Source of the DNA: a virus
DNA length: 26,663 nt
Reading direction: 5' to 3' (one strand)
IMG/VR virus record: IMGVR_UViG_3300034954_001020
Coordinates: 1 to 26,663 of that record
A program made the translations under genes and the position numbers. The notes beneath the pieces were generated by a model that made no database searches, was not told where the DNA came from, and saw only the letters and a program-made list of their open reading frames with translations. Shown here in pieces: positions 13,515-26,663 of this stretch (the first letter of the stretch is position 1; every line of letters starts with the position of its first letter).

Positions 13515-15362
13515 TTATTCTGGTTCAGTTCTGACCAGGTTAGTATATTCTTGTCTGTTGAACACAGAGGTAGCACCAGATGTCTGCCCAGACAGAGTAT
13601 CTGAGGTAGTAAACTTGTAGGTGTTACCATTATTTGTAATGCTGCTGAGTTCTAATATCCGATATCCGAAAGCATCAGCGGTCTGATTAAACGAAACAAC
13701 CGTTGCCGTAACACCTGTGCTGCTACCAGTAACAGTTTCACCGATTTGATATGGAGTATCATTCCAGGTCTGTACTTTGACAGCAGTAGTAGATGTGTGA
13801 TCAACACCATCACCCAGAGCACCAGCAGTATTGATAGTGGCAGTCAAAGGAACAAGGTTGGAGTCATAAATCTGATCACCTTGCTGGAACAGTGTAGTGT
13901 TCTGTCCACCAACAGTCTCTTCAATACCATACAGAGATGATGCAATACCACCATCAAGGTTGATCTCATCTTCAAAGTCTGTATCAGTATTTACCAGATC
14001 AATGATACCGTCGCCAGCACCATCAACTTCATCATCATCTTCAAATACAAATCCTTCTAAGGTTCCGATAGGATCAGTAAAGGTAATAATGCTTCCTTCG
14101 GGATCTTCCAACAGAACGTGCGGATTGACACCTGTACCAGAAGATGCAGCAGAACCTGCAATGAACTGAATAACAGCAGTCTTCTCGTTAGATCTACCAC
14201 CGTCAATGAATGCCAATTCATCAACTTCAAATGTAAGGAATAGTTCCTTAGTGTCAGGACGCCAGTCATAAACAATAGCAACCTTGTTGGACTTATCCTC
14301 TTGTACTCTTCTAACACGGTCTGCGACAGTGAAAGAGTAACCAGAGATGCCAGTATTAGGATCAGTTGCCAGGTTATCAAGGATCACACGCTGGTCATAA
14401 CGGAAGTTAATACCTCTATCACAACCAGTGAAAGAGATAGGTGTCTTACCCGTATATCTAATAATCTCTCTGCCGATCTGGAACTTACCAGAACCAGGGA
14501 AAGCGTTAGTAGTTTCTACATACAGAGTTGTGTCAGCAGGTGCAGCGTCTCTAATCAACGCTGTCATATTGAAGAATGAGGACACCAGAGAGGTTCTATT
14601 TCTCTGTGTTCTGATCAGGTTGGTATCACGAGTGAAGATAACATTAGGTGCAGATGTATATCCACCACCAGGGTTCAACAGTGTGATGTTTGAGATACGA
14701 CCCAAGTTGATCTCTGCCTTTGCTTCGGCACCAGATCCACCACCACCAATAATTTGTAGGATAGGAGGAGTTTCAAAGAACTCACCTTCTGATGTAACTC
14801 TAATGTTTTCGACAACACCGAACTGATTAACTTCGGCAACACCACTAGCACCAGATCCACCACCACCAGAAATAACAATAGTAATATCTTCGGAAGTATA
14901 GTTTCTACCGTTGTTCTCAACAGACAAACCAGTCACACCACCAGTAACAGGGACTAGTTCTGCACCAGATCCACCACCACCTCTTAGGTATGCCTCAGCA
15001 TTAAAATATCCATCACCAGGTTGATTAACCTGCAAGAAACTAACAGATCCATCGGGATTCAAATAGATGTTAGCGTCTGCATCAACGATACCTTCATCAT
15101 TACTAACAATATCCAAACGGAGAGGATCATAACCCTCACCAGGGTCAATCACATCAACAGACAGGATCTCACCATTGTCTGCAATGTTTGCTCTTAAAAC
15201 AGCATCCCTGATAGGAGTACCACAGTTGCCAATAGACAACTTCGGTGGATCGTTAGGGTCATACCCACTACCACCATTAGTTACGATAACGTCCTTAACT
15301 CCGTAGACAGAGTTAAAGACGGGTTCGATAGATGCACCTGATCCAGGGACTGTTCTTGGCAT
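13515..15362 (-). CDS. Glycine-repeat virion structural protein (615 aa)
   Basis: The start overlaps the stop of the gp10-like gene by one base (TAATG), implying coupled translation. Residues 24-245 are repeats of the form GxGYxxxP followed by a strand and GGGGSGAxAxAxV: for example TNGGSGYDPND, DPGEGYDP, QPGDGYF, GGGGSGAELVPV, GGGGSGASGVAEV and NPGGGYTSAP. Residues about 274-327 hold a known phage-structural pattern (TTLYVETTNAFPGSGKF, IGREIIRYTG, SFTGCDRG). Residues about 438-470 are very acidic. The C-terminus carries two TSGA-type modules (GSSTGVTATVVSF and SGQTSGATSVF). I see no enzyme motif, signal peptide or membrane helix. Lying between the gp10-like gene and gp8, it is most likely a baseplate wedge or peripheral protein, but I cannot match it to a named T4 protein. 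Confidence 0.87.
   Translation of the reverse strand: MPRTVPGSGASIEPVFNSVYGVKDVIVTNGGSGYDPNDPPKLSIGNCGTPIRDAVLRANIADNGEILSVDVIDPGEGYDPLRLDIVSNDEGIVDADANIYLNPDGSVSFLQVNQPGDGYFNAEAYLRGGGGSGAELVPVTGGVTGLSVENNGRNYTSEDITIVISGGGGSGASGVAEVNQFGVVENIRVTSEGEFFETPPILQIIGGGGSGAEAKAEINLGRISNITLLNPGGGYTSAPNVIFTRDTNLIRTQRNRTSLVSSFFNMTALIRDAAPADTTLYVETTNAFPGSGKFQIGREIIRYTGKTPISFTGCDRGINFRYDQRVILDNLATDPNTGISGYSFTVADRVRRVQEDKSNKVAIVYDWRPDTKELFLTFEVDELAFIDGGRSNEKTAVIQFIAGSAASSGTGVNPHVLLEDPEGSIITFTDPIGTLEGFVFEDDDEVDGAGDGIIDLVNTDTDFEDEINLDGGIASSLYGIEETVGGQNTTLFQQGDQIYDSNLVPLTATINTAGALGDGVDHTSTTAVKVQTWNDTPYQIGETVTGSSTGVTATVVSFNQTADAFGYRILELSSITNNGNTYKFTTSDTLSGQTSGATSVFNRQEYTNLVRTEPE
14628..15293 (-). repeat. GxGY / GGGGSGA repeat array in the 615-aa protein
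   Basis: About six degenerate protein-level repeats of roughly 35-45 residues each contain a GxGY turn, mostly with hydrophobic strands, and three copies of GGGGSGA (near 14968, 14858 and 14738). The three GGGGSGA segments are similar at DNA level too (repeated ccaccaccacc and gcaccagatcc on the plus strand). Confidence 0.75.
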
Positions 15363-16846
15363 TAGACTACAACGATATTACCGACCATGTTTCCATGAAT
15401 GTTGCACTGATAGACATACGTCGTACCAGCAGCAAGACTTTGTGGAACTGTCCAGTATTGGACTCCATTGATAGAACCACTAGTTCCACTGATCTGAGAA
15501 CCACCAGCACTCACTCTCAATTCAAGAGGGTGTCCAGATCCAGTAGTGTTATCAAATCTGTATGTAAATCCACGATACACATAGATCGTAGGATCCGCCT
15601 GATCATCAATACCAGGACCAGTTACCTGATATGCATTGGTGTTGTTAGAAGAGAATGCATAACTTAGGACAGGAGATGCTACTGCTTCGTATGCAGATGA
15701 TCCACGAACCAGGGACTGTCCTTCTTGGGCAGAGGGTAGCGCGACAGTGTTAGTAATAGTAAGCGTTGACCCAGATACCGCAGTAGTGATCCCAGTGCCA
15801 CCAGCAATCGTGACAGTAGAATCAGCGGCGTTAGCAGTATACGAACCAGTATCTCCTGCAAGGGTTTTAAGGACATCTTGGACTACGTTGGGAGAATCGT
15901 TGGTGATAGTAATAGCACCAGCGTTCAGGTTGGTAGAGATACCAGACCCACCAGTGAATGTCAGACTGTCAGTAACAGTAGTTGCAGTCGTAGTACCGTT
16001 ATCAGCACCAAAGGTGGTGAACACATTTTGGTCCAGGTCACCCAAGGTGCCTGTCATATCAATAGTAAGAGTATCACCAACCAGAGTAGTGGAGATGTTA
16101 GTACCACCTGCAATAATGAGGGTATCGTTAGGAGCAGAAGCAGTAGTAGTACCAGTATCGGCATTGACACTCTCAAAAAGATTCTGTGTGGTGCCACCGC
16201 TACCACCAGTTCCTTGCTCATCATTAGCAGGAGACCACTTACCAGTGGATTCAACCCATTTCAGAACCTGACCGTCAGACGGACCACCATTTACTGTGGT
16301 ATCAACGTCGTTCAGAACAGTAATACTTTGGTTCTCGTCTACAAGGGGAACCCAAGCAGCAGAGTGAGCAAAGTATGCCTTGCCAGTGCCGTGAACATGA
16401 GCAAGCATACCATGATGGTTAGTCGCATCAGGAAGGTCGCCCAGAGTAGCGTAAGGAGCGTACCATTTGAGGTATCCATCGTCTCCATCAATATAGGTAT
16501 ATGCAGAACCAGATCCACCTGCCCACAGTTGGATATCGCCAGTTCCTGTTTGTTTGATGACAATGTTGTCTGTGGCATCACAAACAATATCATTGCCGTT
16601 GGTATCCAGGTTACCAGTTAGCAGGTTAAAATCTGCACCACGGAAAGCAGGAGTCGGACTACTGCTCCATTGCAGCACCTGACCATCGGTAATACCAGCA
16701 CCAATATCAATCAGGATATTAGTTTGGTTACCCAATGCCTCATAAAGTTCATCAAAGTTGGCATTAAATTTAATGGCACCATCTCTTAGGGTATCACCAG
16801 TACCATCATTTGCCGAAGATCCAATACCAACTAGCTGTTTTGCCAT
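15362..16846 (-). CDS. gp9/gp10-like baseplate protein with C-terminal cupredoxin-like domain (494 aa)
   Basis: Residues 1-40 (VGIGSSANDGTGDTLRDGAI, KFNANFDELYEALG) closely parallel the start of T4 gp10 (DDGTGDYLRKGGIKINENFD) and resemble gp9, so this end probably plugs into the baseplate. Two DGQVLQW/DGQVLKW motifs follow at about 54 and 191. Residues 144-161 are His-rich (HHGMLAHVHGTGKAYFAH). Three tandem beta repeats occupy about 224-268, 275-317 and 324-366. Residues about 400-494 form a cupredoxin-like domain: a His at 439 (SGHPLELRV), then Cys481, His484 and Met487 in YQCNIHGNMVGNIVVV, the normal order of type-1 copper ligands. There is no signal peptide. A CATAAATAG box precedes it. 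Structural role is fairly sure; copper binding is predicted only. Confidence 0.9.
   Translation of the reverse strand: MAKQLVGIGSSANDGTGDTLRDGAIKFNANFDELYEALGNQTNILIDIGAGITDGQVLQWSSSPTPAFRGADFNLLTGNLDTNGNDIVCDATDNIVIKQTGTGDIQLWAGGSGSAYTYIDGDDGYLKWYAPYATLGDLPDATNHHGMLAHVHGTGKAYFAHSAAWVPLVDENQSITVLNDVDTTVNGGPSDGQVLKWVESTGKWSPANDEQGTGGSGGTTQNLFESVNADTGTTTASAPNDTLIIAGGTNISTTLVGDTLTIDMTGTLGDLDQNVFTTFGADNGTTTATTVTDSLTFTGGSGISTNLNAGAITITNDSPNVVQDVLKTLAGDTGSYTANAADSTVTIAGGTGITTAVSGSTLTITNTVALPSAQEGQSLVRGSSAYEAVASPVLSYAFSSNNTNAYQVTGPGIDDQADPTIYVYRGFTYRFDNTTGSGHPLELRVSAGGSQISGTSGSINGVQYWTVPQSLAAGTTYVYQCNIHGNMVGNIVVV
15749..16177 (-). repeat. Three tandem ~45-residue beta repeats in the gp10-like protein
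   Basis: Each unit has the pattern GTTTA....DTLTIAGGTGISTT..G.TLTI. The three units cover residues 224-268, 275-317 and 324-366. They look like a fibre-shaft segment between the baseplate-anchoring N-terminus and the C-terminal cupredoxin-like head. Confidence 0.8.
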
Positions 16847-16868: not shown

Positions 16869-16876
16869 TATTTATG
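16869..16876 (-). promoter_or_regulatory. Late-promoter-like box (CATAAATA) before the gp10-like gene
   Basis: Read on the minus strand this is CATAAATA followed by G, one mismatch from TATAAATA. It lies 22 nt before the ATG at 16846 and contains the TAA stop (16874-16872) of the YHYH gene, so stop codon and promoter box share bases. Confidence 0.6.
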
Positions 16877-18476
16877 TTGCGTCAAACGAGATAGATGTAG
16901 TATCGAACTTAGTATCCGTAGATGAGAAGTCCGCATCTCCTTGACCATCACCAATACCCGTTACAGTCAATGTCACCACGTCCGACATTAGCGGTGAGTT
17001 TGTTGCGGGAGTAACGCCCAGTCCAAGAGGACCACGCACCTCACATCTGAACTTATATCCAGACATGTAATTCAATGCAGTGAATTCATATGTGCTATTA
17101 GTAGCACCAGTCAACACTGCAAACGAGAATCCACCATCAGTAGATCTGAACCACTGATATGCCTTAGGTCCATCCTCAGGACTGATAGTTGCAGAAATAC
17201 TAAACGTAACAGTTTGACCAACGTTATGTGTGGCATTCTGCGGTTGATTAGTAATCTGGATAGTTGCAGGGGCAACAGTACCACCACCACCTTGATCAGG
17301 AGGAGGAGGTGTAGCAGCACCATTATTAGGTGGTTGATTTAGTACCTCACGAGATGTCAAACCAACCAGGTATGGGAACACTGGAAGTAGGTTCTGCTCA
17401 CTATCTAATTCAGTAGAAAGGAAGTAAGCATATGTACCATCTTGGAACTCAGGTGTGACACAAAAACGTCCATTATGGTAGTCGAGGTTACCAAGACCCT
17501 CAGCATACTCCCAGTCCGCCATCAGAGCGCCTGCTGGGGGGTTCTGCTGACTATCTCCATAGGATGGTCTATTCTCTGCTTCTTCTGATTTAACTCTGTA
17601 TGAACTAGTTGCAAGACCAATATCACTATCGTTGTTCCAAGGATCGGTATACATGTATGGTCCGTATACAGGGAACCCATCAAAAGCATAACCAAGAATC
17701 TTAGAGTGACCATCTGGATGTCTCAGGTTGTCACCGTTGTACTGAGATGCTCCATAGTAATCGTTATATGATGCCATCACAGAATCTGCTTTCCAGCAAC
17801 CAAGAAACTCAGTGTCATGATAGTGATACTGACCAGTTACTTCTGGATGACCACCACAATTATCATCACCAAAGTTTACTGGCGACCCTTCAAAATGTGC
17901 ATTCCATTGGAATCCAGTCGGAGGATTTCCTCCTGCTCCTGCACTGGGATTGAAAAATACAACGCCATTAGCAGCAACCCCAATAGCGCCCAACGGTGTT
18001 TCGGACCTTCCATTACGTTGATCATAATATTCGTACGTGCCGTTATAACCTGATCTTTGGAAATCCATAATCAGTTCTAGATACTGATCACTTGCTCTCC
18101 AAAACTCACCAGCAGTGGCAGTCTGCTCAGTGCCTTTATATACAAATACTTGCTTCCTTTCGTTGACAGTATTCTCATCGAATACAAACAAGATTCTGTC
18201 ACCAACTCTGATAGCAGAACCTAGAAGAGTATTGTCAGCAACCGATAATGGAATCTGAATAAAGAACCCATCATGGACAAAGGTGTTAGCATCAAACGTC
18301 CTAGTGACGCCAAAAGTCCCACCCCTGTAATAAAAAGTATGTTCAAAATCCTGCTCAGTTACCTGGTTAGGATTATTGGCATTGGGAAAAGTACCATACA
18401 GTACGGGGTTTGGAAGTCCATCCCCGTCCACTGTAAGGTTTCTAGTACCAGCGTTATATTCAGCGGTTGCTGTCAT
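16872..18476 (-). CDS. YHYH-domain protein with C-terminal Ig-like domain (534 aa)
   Basis: Residues about 60-360 show the hallmarks of the bacterial YHYH family: LGAIGVAANGVVFFNP (162-177), DDNCGGHPEVTGQYHYH (204-220, giving the family its name), Cys227, and GHSKILGYAFDGFPVYGPY (256-274), with Cys339 further on. The family is common in marine bacteria and its biochemical role is unknown; the conserved His and Cys residues suggest metal binding. A Pro/Gly linker (381-403) leads to an Ig-like domain at about 405-508 (QPQNATHNVGQTVTFS, AYQWFRSTDG, YKFRCEV), like the one ending the neighbouring giant protein. There is no signal peptide, as expected for a virion part. The ATG is only 13 nt after an AATAAATA box and has no Shine-Dalgarno. 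The location in the baseplate operon implies a structural or host-surface-binding role. Confidence 0.9.
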   Translation of the reverse strand: MTATAEYNAGTRNLTVDGDGLPNPVLYGTFPNANNPNQVTEQDFEHTFYYRGGTFGVTRTFDANTFVHDGFFIQIPLSVADNTLLGSAIRVGDRILFVFDENTVNERKQVFVYKGTEQTATAGEFWRASDQYLELIMDFQRSGYNGTYEYYDQRNGRSETPLGAIGVAANGVVFFNPSAGAGGNPPTGFQWNAHFEGSPVNFGDDNCGGHPEVTGQYHYHDTEFLGCWKADSVMASYNDYYGASQYNGDNLRHPDGHSKILGYAFDGFPVYGPYMYTDPWNNDSDIGLATSSYRVKSEEAENRPSYGDSQQNPPAGALMADWEYAEGLGNLDYHNGRFCVTPEFQDGTYAYFLSTELDSEQNLLPVFPYLVGLTSREVLNQPPNNGAATPPPPDQGGGGTVAPATIQITNQPQNATHNVGQTVTFSISATISPEDGPKAYQWFRSTDGGFSFAVLTGATNSTYEFTALNYMSGYKFRCEVRGPLGLGVTPATNSPLMSDVVTLTVTGIGDGQGDADFSSTDTKFDTTSISFDAT

Positions 18477-18489
18477 TGCACTTTTTGAC

Positions 18490-18497
18490 TATTTATT
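18490..18497 (-). promoter_or_regulatory. Late-promoter-like box (AATAAATA) before the YHYH gene
   Basis: Read on the minus strand this is AATAAATA followed by G. It contains the TAA stop (18495-18493) of the giant upstream gene. Its end is only 13 nt from the YHYH ATG, so a transcript from it would have a leader of under about 10 nt. Confidence 0.55.
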
Positions 18498-21400
18498 GGA
18501 AGATCTGAGTCGGGTTGAAGTTGGTGACGATAGTAGCACCAGTCTGAACTGTGAGGATCACAGAGTTGGAGTAGACAGGTGTAGCACCAGCAGCAGTGAC
18601 TGCGACACGGAATTCATCACCATCATCTGCCTGTTCAGCAGCGTTAGATGTGTAAACCGAGAGTGTGGAACCAGTGATGTTGTTCCAATCAGTTTCACCG
18701 TATTGCTTGCGCTGCCACTGATAGTTCAGTGCAGTTGTTCCAACTTGATTGTCAGAACTGTTAACGAACTGAGCGATGATAGTGAACTGTGCAGTCTGGT
18801 CTTGGTTCACGGTCACGTTCACAGGTTGTGAAACGATGTTGATGTAACCAGGTGTAATAACGATCGGGTTACCCTGAGCGTCAGTACCCTCACCAGCGTA
18901 GGTATCGAAACCTTGGTTGACAGCAGGTCCAGTAGGAACAACGAAGTCGTCATCAACGGTAGTCTCGACAGTAACTGCGGGTTGTGCGTAACCAATACCA
19001 GGAGTCTTCACGTCGATTCTCATCAGACCCATCAGAGCGCGGACACGACCGTCGAAACCAGTCGAGGAAACCACGTCCACGTTCGGGCGTGAGGTGTAAC
19101 CATCACCAGGTGCGGTAATGATTGCCTTGGTGATCTCACCAGACTTGATGTCAGCAAGTGCCTCAGCGTTACGACCCTTGACGGTTCCTGTGTACTCGAA
19201 GGTAATCAAGGAGTTTGAGGATTCGATCAGAGCGACTTCACGAGGATCTGCCTCACCTTCGATTTGCAGGATGTCACCAGCCTCAATCGGAGGTACGACA
19301 GTCGCCGCGATCACGTCAGCATCAGAACCGATGTAGGAGAAGGCAACGAACGTAGATCCTGCGCGAGGAATCTCAGCGAAGATGATTCTAGAACCAACCA
19401 GTTCATAACCAACACCAGGTTCCTGAATCACACCATTGAGCGAGACGATGATGTTGTTCTCAGGCAGGATAGTGTTGGACGACACACCTTCTGTCAGAGT
19501 CAGGGAGTAGAAACCACCCTGATACTTCAAGTTGAAGGAGGAACGCAGAGAGTCAAACTCGAAACTGATGTCATCGAGTTGTCTCAGTTTACCCACGTAG
19601 TAACCAATGAATTCGGAACCAATGGTGGGAGGTTCAGTAAACTGGATCTGGTCAGAGAACGCAGTGTAGGCGTAGTTTGCACCAGGAGGTTGCAGCACAC
19701 CGTTGACGAACACGAGCAGGTGTCCAGCGGGATCTGGGAAGTAAGACTCGCCGTTGTTGACAGTGAGTTTGAAGGAATCAGCAGTGCCGTCGAATCCACG
19801 GAAGAAGCGATCACAACGTCCGAGAAGACCCTTAGATTGAGATACAGCAGCGTACCAACCGTAGTCAGATCTGATAGTGAGGTTGCTGGGGAAGTCGCCA
19901 TTTACATCTTCCAACCAGATGCGACCAGTGTTACCACTGATTGCTTTACCTGCGACCTTACCGTATGAGGTGTAGTTGGTAACAGTCTGACCGATGATGT
20001 CACAAGAGATAATCGGGAAGTTGTTGAGGTTCTCAAATCTACCAAGTCCAGTACCACCTGCGAGCAGCTCAGCGGGGTCAACAGTTGTAGATCCGTCAGC
20101 ACCAGCGCCATAGGGTTGCAGGTTTGCAATCCAGATCTTGTGGATGCCATTGTCAGGATCATAGACGTAATCCGTAACCATAGCAGTCCAACCAGGGATC
20201 TTAGGTACAGAACCCGACAGGAGATAAACTAGATCACCAGCAGAGAAGTCACCTTCAAAACCTTGGTCTCTCAGGACATTATTAACATCACACTCGACAA
20301 CCTGGGTCGCGTGTACGAACTGGTTGAGTTCGATATCTTGGAATCCGACCTTAGTGATGTTACCGATATCAAGGATCTTATCAGTGATAGAACCGTAAAT
20401 GATGTCGCCATCAATGAAGTTATCTTGCAGAGTTTCAATGTCAATCGTAATACGACCACCCAGGTTGCTAGTCAAGGAACCAGCAGAGTTTTCGTAGGAA
20501 ACGATGGTTGCCTCAGCGCCATTACCTTTGTTGAAGATAATCTCACCGTTAGCGAATGCACCGCGATCGATGTTGATCAACATACGATCAGTTCCTGTGC
20601 CAACCAGTTCTGCGGTTTCACCACTATCAACACCTTCCAGAACCTGAGTGGCACTGAACGAACCAGTGATATTCTCTACATAAATCCAACCTTCATCGGA
20701 GTTATCACCCGTGAGGGTAGAGGTTTGAAGGACGATACCGTAGTTAGAACCAGCACCTTGAACTTGGACTCTTTCACCAACAGTGAATCTGCCCGTAGCA
20801 ACTCTGATCTCATATCTGCGGTACATCTTGACGATTTCCGCTTCGTTGTTTCTAGTTCTGACAATCTCAGAAGAAGCGTTAGATGTAGTACCAACAACCA
20901 CGTCAGCAAGGTTGAAACCACCACTGATGGGGTTATCAACGTCTCTGGTGCCATATGTAGTTGCCTTACGATGGATGCCAGAGCGTACAGGAGATGACAG
21001 TTGCTGAGCACCAGTCAGTCTGGTGTCAACTGCGAATCTTCTAAATCTAGCGTCATGACGAATCTCAGTTGTAACTTCAAACTGTGAAGGAGTTGCATTC
21101 AACACATAGTAATAAGGTTGCGATCCGAATGCAGACTCAACGTCACCAGATGCAATCGCGTAAGAAAGAACATCACCACGGGAGTAGAAGTTAGGACGCT
21201 GGATGATAATCCTATGCTCTCTGTTCTCAAATCCAACTTCAACAGTCGGAGTGTTAATGATCAGGTCAGGATCAGTGTTCCAGTCAGTACCTTCGTCAAA
21301 CAGGTTACGTTGGTTAGTGGCATGAACGTTGTTAGTCCACTGAACGCTGTTTTGTGCAGGAGGTGTACCTCTGCTGATAGCGAAGTATGCAGCATTGAGA

Positions 21401-24400
21401 GAACTATCAATCTTGAACTGAGTAGACTCTTTCTCATATTCAAAGCGGTTATCAATCGCACCCGTACCAAAGTGGGTCTCATCTTGATATATGTCATATC
21501 CGAAGAACTCACCACCCACGAGCACGTCATTGTAATCATCAAGAATACGCTTGGCGTACTCACTGACTCTGGTCACATACCAGAGCAAGTGTTGCTTGGT
21601 AACATCAGGGAATGCGATGAAGTTGCCCTCACCATCAAACCAGGTGTTGACGAGTCTCAGGATACCAACGTTACCGCCAGTGTTCAGGTCATACAGCAGA
21701 CCCTTGACCAGTTCCTCACCGAAAGCGAGGTCGGCAGTTGTAGTCGGATATGCAGTTTGTACCTCAGCAAATGCCTTGCCTGCGACAACATGACTGTTGA
21801 ACAGGATACGTCTAGCAGCAGTCTTATCGGACTTACTACCACCACCCAACGATTCGCTCATGAGATCAAACAGAGTCTCAGAGGCAGACGTTACGTTGTA
21901 GCAAGTGTAATACTGATATGCAGCGTTGCTGTTGTAACCAGTGTTGCGGGTAACAGTAGTGAGGTGACTTGGGGCAGGAGATCCAGAGGCAGCAACAGTG
22001 ATGGTGTTAAGAACAATATCGAAGAGAGATTCGATGTTAGTTGCCTGTGTCTGACAAGTCTGATTCCATTCGCTACCACCTTCGTAGGTAACAGTAACGT
22101 CACGCTCAACCATCTCAGGAGAATACTTGACAGGCCAGATGTATGGCATTGTCTTAGTAATAGTCCCGTCAGTAATATCAGTAGGTGTAGTGATTGTATC
22201 GGTTACGATTGTCATCAGCGTAGTGATGGCATCAGCAACGTTGACGCACTTGGGATTAGCAGTATCCGCAGTGATGCTATAACCACCATCGCTATATGGA
22301 GGATAATCCAGATCAGCGTAGAACTTCTGAGTGTAACCATGACCAGCGGTGACAGTAATAGTCTCACCTCTCATGGATTGGATTGCAAGATCTCTTGCTT
22401 TCTCCAAGATCCAGATAGACTCAGTAGAAACACCTACGATGTGTGCCAGGTTAGATCCAGAGACATACAGTTCAGATGCCATGAACACCTTGTTGTTACC
22501 ACCGTATTTGAGGTTCCAAACCATCGCTTGGAGAACGTCGGTAACGTCATGGACACAATCAATATAACCGTTAGTGGTGATAGCGTTTTGCTCAGCACTT
22601 ACGAAGGTGTGTGCGTACTGGAATTCAGCAGCAGCAACACCGACGTTAACGGTCAGTGTGTTTGCATCAACAACTGTGACTGCCAAGGAAGAACCCCATG
22701 CAGGGTCACTGGCGCGAGGATAAGAATGCTCAGTAGCATTAGAGTCCTGTGTGCAAGTGAAAGTCAGAGAACCAGGTCTGATGGTAATTCTGTTACCAGT
22801 AGACAGTCCATGATTTGGGGTTGTGTCGATAGTCAGCAGACCACTAGTGTGGTTGTAAGTGACGTTACTAGGAGTCAACTCAACACCACCAGATCCACTC
22901 TGACCATTGATGTTCAGTGAGGGGAACTGTGCTCTACCCTGAGCGACTGCTTCCTCAGCAATGAAGCGGATGTTTCTGTCGATGATATTTGCAGCATCGA
23001 TAAACCTGTCAGCAACAGCGTTTCTCTCATAGGTTTGAACGTCAACCTGTTCAATGGACTCACCGCCACTCAGAGGTTCACCAGTTACAGGATCAACACC
23101 ACCGCCTTCGGGATCATAGATGTAAAGGTTATCACGACCGAAACCATTACGGATTGTCAGAATGCAGATCTCAGCAGCGATCTTCATAGTATCGAGAGCA
23201 GCATCGAGTTCAGCCTCAACGTGCTTCAAGCTGCTATCCTCAGGATTCAGATAGAGATTTGCAGCATCCCATGTGCGAGAGTTACCACCAAATCTGAGGT
23301 CATGGATCACAGCATCGATAACATCCATAACGTCATCAACGCAGTTCTGAGCACCGCCAGGGATTGCCAAGTCAAGATACTTGGACATTCCGTTCATTGT
23401 GTAGACTGCTTCCTTAGCAATTACATGCTTGTTTCTTTCAAGCATATCGGCAGCATCAAGGTTCTTAGTGATATCAGAACTACTACCAGACTCATAACCT
23501 TTGGTGTCGATAGTAATTGTGTCATCTCTATATGCTGGAACCTGAGTGTATTGAGCAACATAATAATCATCTTGATACTCAGGCGACACACCAATACCAG
23601 CAGCAGTAGTACCGAAGGACAGGAGAGTGTTATTGATAGCGTGATGTACTAACTTCTTAGTGTAGTCAAATGCATCCAGCATAGGACCAAGTTCATTCTC
23701 AATGTGGATGATCTGAGAGTTAGGATCGATATACTGATCAATTACATACTGAGTAGCAGAGTTACCACCAGTGATCAAGTCAGTGATGACAGCAGGCAGG
23801 ATGTGCTGTTTAAGGTCACGGAGGCAGTAAGGTTCACCATAACCAGGCATGACGAGTTTGTCATACACATTGCCGTTAATATCCTTAATATATGTTGCTT
23901 GCAACCAACCGACAACTTCTTCTGAGATGTAATCGCGGTTCTTCCAGATAGCATCGCCACCATCACGGAATCTGTCACCAGTAGGTCCGATGATATCTGC
24001 AATGGTGTTACAGAGATCAGTAATCTCATTAGTTACCAGAGAAGATGCAGGAGAAGTAAAGTTATTAGGAATACGAAGCAGTTCAGTGTACTTAGTACCG
24101 TTGAAGGTTTCGAGGTCAGCACTGGTAGTAGTGATAACGAAGTTAATAACGTTGGCAAGTTCTGTCCAGGTGTAGATAGATTGGAGCAGTTCATTGCCCA
24201 CATAGTTCAGTCCACCTTCCTTAGTCAGGTAACCTCTACCAGCGATAACGCTGTTGTAGTTACCACCATAACGAATGTCCTCTACAACTGCTTTCAGGAT
24301 GTACTCTTTGGTGTCACGCAGACACTTGTTAGTACCCTGTTGTACGCCAACACCATCAGCACTGTCGCCAGGAATGATGAAGTCAGAATACTTCTCCTTC

Positions 24401-26663
24401 ATCAGACCAACAGCAACCTCAGAGATCCAATCGTAGTTCAGTTCGATAAGATCAGCACATCTACGATGCTCGTCACGAGAAAGGTTGATGTCCTCAATGA
24501 TGAACTGCTTATTATCGTAGTCAACACTCTTAGCGGTAGCAGTAGAGTTGGTTTGACCAGTGTAAACACCATAACGCTCACGATCGCTCAGGATGAACGG
24601 CAGTTCCATGCTCATACCGAACGAGATGTTGTTCGTAGAGGTAGGATATGTGAAACCAGGTGTGAAGGTAGCAGTGTAGTCAGAGACTCCCTTCTTGAAG
24701 ATGATATTATCAACCCAACCAACAAAGTTGTTAGATCCAGCGTAGTCAGAACCAATCTTGAATGCACGCTCCAAGTAGTTGTTGTTGTCAGTGTAGTCAC
24801 CACCAACTTGTGTGCCATTGACCCACAGTTTAGTGATGTTAGTAGTTCTGGTAACAGCAACGTGATGCCAGGAGTTTGTACCCAGGTTATGAGCAGCAGA
24901 GATTTGATCAGAACCGTTATACCACCAGTTGATAGTAGAACCATTCAAATACAGAGCAGGAGATCCTGTCTCAGTAGATCCACTAGTGCGGCAATCCCAG
25001 AGGAACTGCACACCACTCAGAGTGGTAGGACGGATCCACATTTCGATGGTGAAGTCACCAGTCTCAAACTTCTGTACATCAGAGATCGGAGAAGAAATAT
25101 AACCACCAGCATCAATTCTCAGTGACTTGGTGCCAGATTTCTTTTGAAGACCAGTCAGAACTGCATTGTTAGCAGTCAGTACACTGTTGGTAATATACTC
25201 TCTGTCTTGCAGAGTTCCAGTGATAGAGTCAGTGAACAACCATTTCAGACCAGAGTTAGTGCCCTTCGCCTCAAAAGATGCACCAGAAGTTACACCTCTG
25301 ATAGTGTCACCAGGTGTGAAGAATCCAGTGGCACCAGGATCCTTGTAGGATACCTTGAACACACGGAGGTTCTCATTCTCTTGGTAAGATCCATCTGAGA
25401 TAACAGGGAGTGCGTTGATAGTAGCGAGACTACCAGAAGCGATAGTAGTTGCTGCCAATTCAACCAGGGTATGAATGCCTGCCTGAACGTCAGCACAGTT
25501 ACCAATGCTCTCGTTTCTACCAGAGTAGTAGTTAGGATCGTAGTATGCAGCAGCAGTGCCACCACCAGTGAATACAGCGTTAGATTCTGCATCAATGAAG
25601 GTATGTGCATAACCACCACCAGAGGAGATAGCGTTATTAGTAGCACTTACAAAGGTGTGTACATACTGATCACCAGCACCAGAAGCACCAACGTTTACCG
25701 TGATGGTATTTGAGGTGACCGAGGAGATAGAGAGGTATGCACCATTTGCAGGGTCACTAGCACGAGGATATGTGTGGTTTGAACCATTGTCGTCCTGTGT
25801 GCAAGTGAAGGTCAAACTATCTTGTGCGATAGTGATGCTGTCACCGATGCTCAACGAGTGAGTACCGATAGTCAGTACCATTACACCAGTTGCGGGGTCA
25901 TATGTAGCGCCAGTAGGTGTAAACTGTACCAGTGCAGATGCGCCAACGTTGACCTGAATAGTTGTTGCAGTTACTGCGGCAATAGGTAGGTCAGTATTGA
26001 AAGCAGGATCCCCAGTACGAGGATAAGAGTGGAAAGAAGCATCTCCGTCAGAAGCACATGTGAAGCGCAAAGCATAGGGCCTAATGCGTACGCTGTCACT
26101 AGTTGTGAGGGTATGAGAACCGATGGTCAGGGTCATCAGACCACTGGACGGAACATAGGCCGCGGCGGATACATCAAACTCTTCAAGTTCGGTAGTTCCA
26201 GCAGCAGAACCAAGATACGGACCAGCATAAGTGGTCGGATCATTGAGCATGTAACCAGTCTCAGAAGTTCTGGTGTTGACCTGAACATAGAGAAGGTTGT
26301 TGATTGCCTTACGGCACATCTCACCTGCTTTTCTGAAAGCAGTGATAGATTCTGCAAGTTCTCCAACCAGACCATTGGTGATAGGAACACCAGCATTGTC
26401 GAAGTATTTTCTAGCGAACTCAACAGTCTGGTAGTTACCGTCTCCTGCAATATCCAAAGCAAGAGCATCAACCATCAGACCAATGTCACGACGGCACTTC
26501 GCTTCGTTAGCACTGTATGCAGTAGGTTCTGTAAGATCAATCAGATCGTTCAGTGAACCTGCAAGCAGAACCTCAGATACGTTGTCAAACAGAGTTTGCA
26601 GCGCAGATTGTACGTCAGAGCAGTTATTGGTTCCATAGTTCTGAGTGTTAGAACCAGGGGTGC
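18493..26663 (-). CDS. Giant modular virion protein with LamG-like and Ig-like domains (partial, 5' end outside window)
   Basis: The ATG at 26475 is internal: the frame stays open to the window edge, and the upstream codons (NNCSDVQSALQTLFDN, DLTEPTAYSANEAKCRRDIG) match motifs repeated inside the protein. At least 2,723 residues are visible. Parts in order: a helical CRRD motif (26500); two beta modules with HxYPRxxDPA (25640-26150); a LamG/concanavalin-like domain (24640-25130: FTIEMWIRP, SWHHVAVTR, KLWVNGTQVGG); about five helical modules of ~110 residues ending in DLxxGGN (21635-24480), with a third HxYPR module at 22590-22870; TSGA-type modules (20590-20910); two NGVxQxPG modules (19330-19800); GxGY repeats (18980-19130); and an Ig-like domain (18520-18840). 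No enzyme motif is visible. It is probably a peripheral baseplate or fibre plate with carbohydrate-binding potential. I cannot equate it to a T4 gene. Confidence 0.88.
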   Translation of the reverse strand, partial: TPGSNTQNYGTNNCSDVQSALQTLFDNVSEVLLAGSLNDLIDLTEPTAYSANEAKCRRDIGLMVDALALDIAGDGNYQTVEFARKYFDNAGVPITNGLVGELAESITAFRKAGEMCRKAINNLLYVQVNTRTSETGYMLNDPTTYAGPYLGSAAGTTELEEFDVSAAAYVPSSGLMTLTIGSHTLTTSDSVRIRPYALRFTCASDGDASFHSYPRTGDPAFNTDLPIAAVTATTIQVNVGASALVQFTPTGATYDPATGVMVLTIGTHSLSIGDSITIAQDSLTFTCTQDDNGSNHTYPRASDPANGAYLSISSVTSNTITVNVGASGAGDQYVHTFVSATNNAISSGGGYAHTFIDAESNAVFTGGGTAAAYYDPNYYSGRNESIGNCADVQAGIHTLVELAATTIASGSLATINALPVISDGSYQENENLRVFKVSYKDPGATGFFTPGDTIRGVTSGASFEAKGTNSGLKWLFTDSITGTLQDREYITNSVLTANNAVLTGLQKKSGTKSLRIDAGGYISSPISDVQKFETGDFTIEMWIRPTTLSGVQFLWDCRTSGSTETGSPALYLNGSTINWWYNGSDQISAAHNLGTNSWHHVAVTRTTNITKLWVNGTQVGGDYTDNNNYLERAFKIGSDYAGSNNFVGWVDNIIFKKGVSDYTATFTPGFTYPTSTNNISFGMSMELPFILSDRERYGVYTGQTNSTATAKSVDYDNKQFIIEDINLSRDEHRRCADLIELNYDWISEVAVGLMKEKYSDFIIPGDSADGVGVQQGTNKCLRDTKEYILKAVVEDIRYGGNYNSVIAGRGYLTKEGGLNYVGNELLQSIYTWTELANVINFVITTTSADLETFNGTKYTELLRIPNNFTSPASSLVTNEITDLCNTIADIIGPTGDRFRDGGDAIWKNRDYISEEVVGWLQATYIKDINGNVYDKLVMPGYGEPYCLRDLKQHILPAVITDLITGGNSATQYVIDQYIDPNSQIIHIENELGPMLDAFDYTKKLVHHAINNTLLSFGTTAAGIGVSPEYQDDYYVAQYTQVPAYRDDTITIDTKGYESGSSSDITKNLDAADMLERNKHVIAKEAVYTMNGMSKYLDLAIPGGAQNCVDDVMDVIDAVIHDLRFGGNSRTWDAANLYLNPEDSSLKHVEAELDAALDTMKIAAEICILTIRNGFGRDNLYIYDPEGGGVDPVTGEPLSGGESIEQVDVQTYERNAVADRFIDAANIIDRNIRFIAEEAVAQGRAQFPSLNINGQSGSGGVELTPSNVTYNHTSGLLTIDTTPNHGLSTGNRITIRPGSLTFTCTQDSNATEHSYPRASDPAWGSSLAVTVVDANTLTVNVGVAAAEFQYAHTFVSAEQNAITTNGYIDCVHDVTDVLQAMVWNLKYGGNNKVFMASELYVSGSNLAHIVGVSTESIWILEKARDLAIQSMRGETITVTAGHGYTQKFYADLDYPPYSDGGYSITADTANPKCVNVADAITTLMTIVTDTITTPTDITDGTITKTMPYIWPVKYSPEMVERDVTVTYEGGSEWNQTCQTQATNIESLFDIVLNTITVAASGSPAPSHLTTVTRNTGYNSNAAYQYYTCYNVTSASETLFDLMSESLGGGSKSDKTAARRILFNSHVVAGKAFAEVQTAYPTTTADLAFGEELVKGLLYDLNTGGNVGILRLVNTWFDGEGNFIAFPDVTKQHLLWYVTRVSEYAKRILDDYNDVLVGGEFFGYDIYQDETHFGTGAIDNRFEYEKESTQFKIDSSLNAAYFAISRGTPPAQNSVQWTNNVHATNQRNLFDEGTDWNTDPDLIINTPTVEVGFENREHRIIIQRPNFYSRGDVLSYAIASGDVESAFGSQPYYYVLNATPSQFEVTTEIRHDARFRRFAVDTRLTGAQQLSSPVRSGIHRKATTYGTRDVDNPISGGFNLADVVVGTTSNASSEIVRTRNNEAEIVKMYRRYEIRVATGRFTVGERVQVQGAGSNYGIVLQTSTLTGDNSDEGWIYVENITGSFSATQVLEGVDSGETAELVGTGTDRMLINIDRGAFANGEIIFNKGNGAEATIVSYENSAGSLTSNLGGRITIDIETLQDNFIDGDIIYGSITDKILDIGNITKVGFQDIELNQFVHATQVVECDVNNVLRDQGFEGDFSAGDLVYLLSGSVPKIPGWTAMVTDYVYDPDNGIHKIWIANLQPYGAGADGSTTVDPAELLAGGTGLGRFENLNNFPIISCDIIGQTVTNYTSYGKVAGKAISGNTGRIWLEDVNGDFPSNLTIRSDYGWYAAVSQSKGLLGRCDRFFRGFDGTADSFKLTVNNGESYFPDPAGHLLVFVNGVLQPPGANYAYTAFSDQIQFTEPPTIGSEFIGYYVGKLRQLDDISFEFDSLRSSFNLKYQGGFYSLTLTEGVSSNTILPENNIIVSLNGVIQEPGVGYELVGSRIIFAEIPRAGSTFVAFSYIGSDADVIAATVVPPIEAGDILQIEGEADPREVALIESSNSLITFEYTGTVKGRNAEALADIKSGEITKAIITAPGDGYTSRPNVDVVSSTGFDGRVRALMGLMRIDVKTPGIGYAQPAVTVETTVDDDFVVPTGPAVNQGFDTYAGEGTDAQGNPIVITPGYINIVSQPVNVTVNQDQTAQFTIIAQFVNSSDNQVGTTALNYQWQRKQYGETDWNNITGSTLSVYTSNAAEQADDGDEFRVAVTAAGATPVYSNSVILTVQTGATIVTNFNPTQIFQ
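21635..24480 (-). repeat. Helical DLxxGGN repeat modules in the giant protein
   Basis: About five related units follow the pattern: a helix with N...I..EAV, then (often) IPG, then C..D....(V/I)..AV..DL..GGN, then A..Y. Clear GGN ends are VVEDIRYGGN (~24265), VITDLITGGN (~23770), VIHDLRFGGN (~23290), MVWNLKYGGN (~22500) and LLYDLNTGGN (~21680). A more distant copy lies at ~26430 (DALALDIAGDGN). Divergence between copies is high, so the array is old. Confidence 0.78.
22590..22870 (-). repeat. HxYPRxxDPA beta module, third copy
   Basis: This unit encodes SGLLTIDTTPNHGL, SLTFTCTQD, EHSYPRASDPA, TLTVNVG and YAHTFVSAEQNAI. It matches the module at 25640-25920, including a near-identical DNA stretch around CTCCTGT/GTCCTGTGTGCAAGTGAA, though it lies about 3 kb further along the gene. 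Confidence 0.8.
25640..26150 (-). repeat. HxYPRxxDPA beta modules, first and second copies in tandem
   Basis: Two adjoining ~75-95 residue units share this pattern: G.MTLTIGSHTL, a D.(V/I).I strand, LxFTCxxD, H(S/T)YPRxxDPA, and IxVNVGAS. The first has HSYPRTGDPA (~26015) and the second HTYPRASDPA (~25765). The second ends with YVHTFVSATNNAI, also found after the third copy. Confidence 0.8.

Follow-up and report, generated by a model that had tools for sequence, protein, structure and literature searches.

Genomic setting and architecture of gp9

The window, that is the whole stretch of DNA analysed, is a virus record of 26,663 bases whose nearest known viruses are the T4-like cyanophages. 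Its long open reading frames (ORFs) are encoded by the minus strand, and their family matches are to tail and baseplate proteins (Table 1). DUF4815 and Laminin_G_3 matches are found in its two giant structural proteins. The gp9/10-like protein, hereafter gp9, belongs to phrog_677, a family named 'baseplate wedge tail fiber protein connector', and its best relative is the baseplate wedge protein of phage S-WAM1. S-WAM1 is also the nearest phage record over the C-terminal domain of gp9 (79.6% identity), followed by P-TIM40, P-RSM6 and S-SZBM1, and the immediate neighbours of gp9 are identical in kind in S-WAM1, P-RSM6 and S-SZBM1. The S-SZBM1 counterpart (tag 207) of the YHYH-domain protein is represented by one peptide in virions, as given in the available text of PMC9146016.

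The N-terminus of gp9 matches PF07880 with 36.3 bits, above the curated cut-off of 25, and the PDB chains of T4 gp10 and gp9 match residues 3-40 and 3-59, respectively. The gp9/10-type anchor assigned to this end by the original prediction is hence well founded. Further along the protein, the β-repeat stretch appears as paired short strands in the whole-protein model, and the domain of interest follows it at the C-terminus, a position read from the gp9 sequence that agrees with the one first proposed. That domain had been delimited as residues 400-494 of the 494-residue ORF, to which positions 15365-15649 of the minus strand do correspond, with His, Cys, His and Met at positions 439, 481, 484 and 487. 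The domain begins slightly before this, the first strand covering residues 394-399 and the start being placed at about residue 392. His439, Cys481, His484 and Met487 are the sole His, Cys and Met residues between positions 400 and 494, and the whole of gp9 contains just one further cysteine, C89. No signal peptide was seen in gp9 by eye.

Table 1. Features of the window and of gp9, with the evidence for each assignment
Feature	Position	Strand	Evidence or remark
Mtd_N protein		minus	family match
gp8-like baseplate wedge protein		minus	PF09215
Giant structural protein, 2478 aa	4504-11940	minus	
gp9/10-like baseplate protein, 494 aa + stop	15362..16846	minus	phrog_677, E 8.1e-142
C-terminal cupredoxin domain, residues ~392-494	15365..15673	minus	AlphaFold2, Foldseek, VIA-align
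Met487 codon, axial ligand	15386..15388	minus	alignment with amicyanin
His484 codon, second His ligand	15395..15397	minus	alignment with amicyanin
Cys481 codon, thiolate ligand	15404..15406	minus	alignment with amicyanin
His439 codon, first ligand	15530..15532	minus	aligned with amicyanin ligand His
β-hairpin repeat stretch, ~residues 222-375	15722..16183	minus	three similar repeats, by eye
N-terminal baseplate anchor, residues 3-51	16694..16840	minus	PF07880 T4_gp9_10_N
YHYH-domain structural protein	16872-18476	minus	PF14240, E 1.4e-35; directly upstream of gp9
Giant structural protein, at least 2660 aa, open at window end	18493-26661	minus	

Fold of the C-terminal domain

The domain was modelled with AlphaFold2 from an 86-row alignment composed of the window domain and loci from viral contigs. 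The model (pLDDT 97.3, pTM 0.89) is all-β, with His439 before a strand, Cys481 at the end of one, and both His484 and Met487 in the loop before the last strand. This arrangement of strands and ligands is the usual cupredoxin layout. Searched against the PDB with Foldseek, the model had 40 matches at E <= 0.001, all of cupredoxin fold and nearly all copper proteins, among them rusticyanin, amicyanin, plastocyanin, purple cupredoxin, copper nitrite reductases, laccases, other multicopper oxidases and SufI, with moderate TM-scores (0.43-0.62). The best match was 2dv6 (E 2.0e-5), in the cupredoxin domain of the Hyphomicrobium nitrite reductase. Alignment with VIA-align gave Z 10.7 for 2dv6 (rmsd 2.3 over 92 residues) and Z 9.5 for rusticyanin 2cal (rmsd 2.3 over 89 residues), the program's own note being that a Z below about 8 may reflect merely a common arrangement. 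Hence the closest fold is that of the nitrite reductase cupredoxin domain of Hyphomicrobium denitrificans (residues 25-131), and rusticyanin is also close; both differ from the gp9 domain in sequence (about 20% identity) and in setting, one being an enzyme domain and the other a soluble carrier, whereas the gp9 domain belongs to a virus particle.

Model and fold searches together give the domain the Greek-key β-sandwich of the cupredoxins. The structure prediction proposed in advance as a check has thus been carried out and supports the anticipated fold: the model is confident, its best fold matches are type-1 copper proteins, and plastocyanin is among those retrieved. When the whole-gp9 model was searched the top families were again cupredoxins, and T4 gp9 was absent among the 50 matches listed. 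In a library of viral structures the domain matched gp9 of other cyanophages, tail fibre proteins and giant-virus 'beta-sandwich' proteins. Copper-free cupredoxin folds exist, and SufI, one of the matches, is not known to bind copper.

The ligand set and its relation to known copper proteins

Profiles of the domain were compared with the PDB, and amicyanin was the best match. A variant chain was retrieved with E 5.6e-4 by the 18-row profile and 8.6e-5 by the 86-row profile, and the wild-type chain with E 1.9e-3 and 3.5e-4, respectively. The hhalign alignment with amicyanin (E 2.3e-6, probability 89%) places H, C, H and M column on column, so that a complete type-1 set, His...Cys-x(2-4)-His-x(2-4)-Met, is found in register with known members. 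The ligands had been described as plastocyanin-like. The completeness of the set was confirmed, while the implied loop spacing has to be revised: C-x2-H-x2-M is the spacing of amicyanin, with the same loop length, and the plastocyanin loop is spaced differently.

Recognition of the domain depends on profiles. The single-domain sequence has no Pfam match at E <= 10, PF00127 Copper-bind (plastocyanin/azurin) included, and phmmer with this sequence found no copper protein in the PDB; profiles alone retrieve them. Among the 86 alignment rows, two Pfam families give weak matches, PF00127 to 12 at E <= 0.01 (best 0.0012) and PF25489 At5g54830-like to 10 (best 1.9e-4).

Two sequence features are marks of the family, a proline after His439 and Tyr-Gln before the cysteine. 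The proline is present in 83 rows of 86, the tyrosine in all of them and the glutamine in 82. In place of this proline, Asn is found in plastocyanin, azurin and amicyanin, and in the first two of these the backbone NH at that position is bonded to the Cys sulphur. Proline would remove that bond, which should shift the reduction potential. The Paracoccus amicyanin, a periplasmic soluble electron carrier, therefore resembles the gp9 domain in its loop and in its four aligned ligands, and differs from it both at the residue after the first His and in its setting, since the gp9 domain is part of a tail protein in which no signal peptide is seen.

Conservation of Cys481 for an intradomain disulphide was rejected, as 85 of the 86 rows contain no other cysteine within the domain; a disulphide between subunits or with C89 could still be formed. 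Plastocyanin itself, encoded by the host-derived metabolic gene petE, is another cupredoxin of cyanophages. The gp9 domain, unlike petE, is structural, and its amicyanin-like loop together with the lack of a PF00127 match for the window domain does not favour its origin in a captured host plastocyanin. The available text of PMC3037559 lists petE for 10 of 16 cyanophage genomes.

Conservation and selection on the site

A set of homologues independent of the ligands was obtained by using only the first ~117 residues of gp9 (alignment A2, 15 rows) as the query against viral contigs; at least 580 relatives were confirmed and the best 80 were kept. Among these best 80 of at least 580, 71 ORFs are complete, and 70 of them end in the cupredoxin domain, L195 being the one that does not; the other nine are cut by contig ends, and three of these contain part of the domain. 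H-C-H-M is complete in 69 of the 70 C-terminal domains, a count that kinship prevents from meaning 69 independent events (the 73 ORFs with the domain comprise 70 distinct sequences), and the equivalent of Met487 is kept in all 70. A chance motif is rejected by these figures. The one exception, L194:3001-3924, keeps the anchor, a recognisable domain and the Met, and has lost both His and the Cys. Since L194 retains the domain after losing three ligands, a metal would be dispensable in some lineage or lineages.

Other samples give a similar picture. All four ligands are invariant in a 63-row alignment of full-length gp9, most of whose rows were found through the domain, and they occupy conservation ranks 5 to 8 of 103 positions in a set whose members were selected in part by the ligand motif. 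The 86-row set, also found in part through that motif, has H-C-H-M in 84 rows, one loss and one axial Gln, the latter in a row that comes from another tail protein. Phage records with a domain match amount to 306 of 50,697, a phage with several records being counted each time, and the four ligands are kept in all 17 of those examined through such matches. Three further phages were reached from the N-terminal end of gp9: S-P4 contains the domain and its four ligands, Enterobacter phage SonariX gave no domain match, and in the gp9-like protein of S-B05 (L225) the anchor is present and no cupredoxin domain was found. Nearly all gp9 homologues examined contain the domain, which is nothing peculiar to the window.

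Considering (i) the fold class, (ii) the ligands in register with those of amicyanin and (iii) their near-invariance, we call the domain a true cupredoxin; that the C-terminus of gp9 is a cupredoxin domain with a complete type-1 (blue) ligand set is near certain.

Around the ligands the domain varies. In 67 distinct, nearly full domains of gp9 and neighbouring ORFs, pairs are identical at a median of 47% of positions; alignments of shorter length had been dropped from this set, one with Gln in place of Met among them. Against 12 close relatives the domain is lower in identity than residues 60-391 in every case, and in the same 12 comparisons, which are not independent because all share the window sequence, its dN/dS is always the higher, 0.16-0.38 versus 0.10-0.26 for residues 60-391, though well below 1. 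Relative to residues 1-60 its dN/dS is not higher in every pair. As judged from the sequences, variation around an unchanging metal site agrees with an exposed head.

Place in the particle

The gp9 of S-SZBM1, linked to the virion protein by its locus tag SSZBM1_206 and its length of 498 aa, was detected in virions purified on CsCl, with 9 peptides covering 24.9% of the sequence, according to Table 1 in the available text of PMC9146016. The predicted presence of gp9 in the particle is thus supported through the virion proteome of a relative. The same text describes S-SZBM1, S-WAM1, P-RSM6 and P-TIM40, the holders of the nearest relatives of the window's domain, as devoid of long tail fibres. 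Since its nearest relatives are without such fibres, the head in the window's clade is not likely to be a long-fibre socket and by analogy is probably turned towards the host.

Likeness to T4 gp9 and gp10 lies in the N-terminal anchor: the sequence match ends by residue 59, and the C-terminal domains of the T4 proteins gave no sequence match. By extension from T4, gp9 is probably a trimer. The whole-gp9 model has a pTM of 0.36 and does not predict the placement of head versus shaft. Within phrog_677, the cyanophage gp9 family, the domain alone matches profile positions 313-409 with E 1.1e-34; the window's gp9 is longer than the members of ~407 aa and otherwise ordinary, and the family name cites only the baseplate-fibre connector.

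The cupredoxin as a module of tail proteins

Some relatives of gp9 are only 217 aa long and consist of the anchor and the cupredoxin with about 65 residues between them (L204:3001-3651, L208:379-1029, L210:3001-3651 and others). Because of these minimal proteins, the cupredoxin is regarded as the constant part of gp9 and the shaft as the variable one. A cupredoxin copy is also found near the start of a tail protein of the podovirus P-GSP1. That the module is common to several tail proteins supports a general head function over a dedicated electron-transfer pair.

Further copies were noticed in other relatives. Proteins of ~640 aa (L025:2378-4291, L035, L036, L037, L039, L043, L044) have, in addition to a C-terminal copy with Met, a second, internal cupredoxin-like stretch with an axial Gln, as in stellacyanin; the first His of this internal copy is aligned by the profile in L025 alone. 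In L050:1907-3496 and L167:4225-6336, from other cyanophages, the large structural protein of the next gene downstream of gp9 contains a weakly similar, cupredoxin-like H-C-H-M stretch. The downstream protein of the window (13515-15362) has no match to the domain profile, and a six-frame scan with this profile found no second cupredoxin elsewhere in the window (best other E 0.5).

A model for the metal site

With moderate confidence we propose a joint model in which a complete type-1 cupredoxin, anchored through gp9 in the baseplate, forms an outward head that is loaded with copper after lysis and whose loop is stiffened by the metal. The N-terminus of gp9 would anchor in the baseplate wedge as in T4, and the β-repeat shaft, probably trimeric, would carry the cupredoxin heads outward. 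While the particle is assembled in the copper-poor cytoplasm the heads would be free of copper, which they would take up after lysis. The bound metal would most likely lock the Cys-His-Met loop, stiffening a head whose surface is free to vary, and the head would touch the host surface, or the fibre in phages that have long ones. Both Cu(I) and Cu(II) are tightly bound by type-1 sites, and the presence of copper in the virion is a likely prediction. Against copper, gp9, with its lack of a visible signal peptide, would have no route to a copper-loading compartment before lysis; the proline after the first His, the moderate TM-scores, the existence of copper-free cupredoxin folds, the loss of ligands in L194 and the S-B05 protein also count against the model. 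The available text of PMC4192464 ranks copper and zinc far below manganese in availability within the cyanobacterial cytoplasm. Because copper is scarce there and no signal peptide is seen, uptake after lysis would be the simplest route.

Occupation of the site by another metal has to be weighed against copper. Type-1 sites bind zinc well, and the site could bind such a metal in a purely structural role, zinc or Cu(I) acquired in the cell being the likeliest. Assembly in a cytoplasm where copper is kept scarce points in that direction, but the available text of PMC4192464 puts cytoplasmic zinc availability even lower than that of copper, and a zinc site would hardly need the Met487 kept in every complete domain. 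The Met may also be kept for packing, since L194 retains it without the other three ligands. We consider a metal other than post-lysis copper rather doubtful.

Type-1 sites carry electrons in the well-studied cupredoxins, and the copper of gp9 might swap an electron with the host surface at adsorption, its redox state gating attachment or baseplate triggering. The intact ligand set of nearly all homologues and the photosynthetic hosts of the nearest relatives agree with such an element, but a homologue without ligands exists, and the recurrence of the module in other tail proteins, even near the N-terminus in P-GSP1, argues against one dedicated partner. A redox role of the head is possible and less supported than the joint model, and gating of this kind seems unlikely. 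Also quite improbable is the combined reading that type-1 centres at the tips of T4-like cyanophage baseplate proteins, empty at assembly and loaded in sea water or from lysing hosts, then use the copper or its redox state to license adsorption; if this were true, a phage particle would sense being outside the cell or at a living photosynthetic surface. An empty site in a fossil fold, with residues kept for packing, would suit the loss of three ligands in L194, but packing hardly explains why all four ligands are near-invariant, and the Cys solitary, in an otherwise variable domain, and we regard this reading as very improbable.

If the joint model is right about copper in the site, the particles of most marine T4-like cyanophages, a group that ranks among the abundant marine viruses, would contain copper. 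This would have a bearing on adsorption, on sensitivity to copper chelation and on trace-metal accounting. The domain is present in about 300 of the phage records searched, and among the records seen the protein names make no mention of it. A literature search judged by titles and abstract openings, and covering few subscription papers, recognised no description of a cupredoxin domain in phage particles; among the titles found on cyanophage cryo-EM and myovirus baseplates, none is of a marine cyanomyovirus structure.

Matches in cellular records

In a scan of genome contigs the domain profile matched 14 records of bacteria or archaea. Most are metagenome bins, and a gp9-type N-terminus is present in at least 6 of the 14. 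A flavobacterial assembly (Nonlabens; L229, L241, L242) has a cyanophage-type gp9 and a photosystem reaction-centre gene on one contig. Occurrence of the domain in phages of other bacteria was rejected for this record, the reaction-centre gene on the same contig indicating that it is most likely a misplaced cyanophage contig. Two short proteins from bacterial bins (L239:3622-4317 and L240:4737-5111), whose ends match the profile weakly with Cys-His-Met, may be ordinary cellular cupredoxins.
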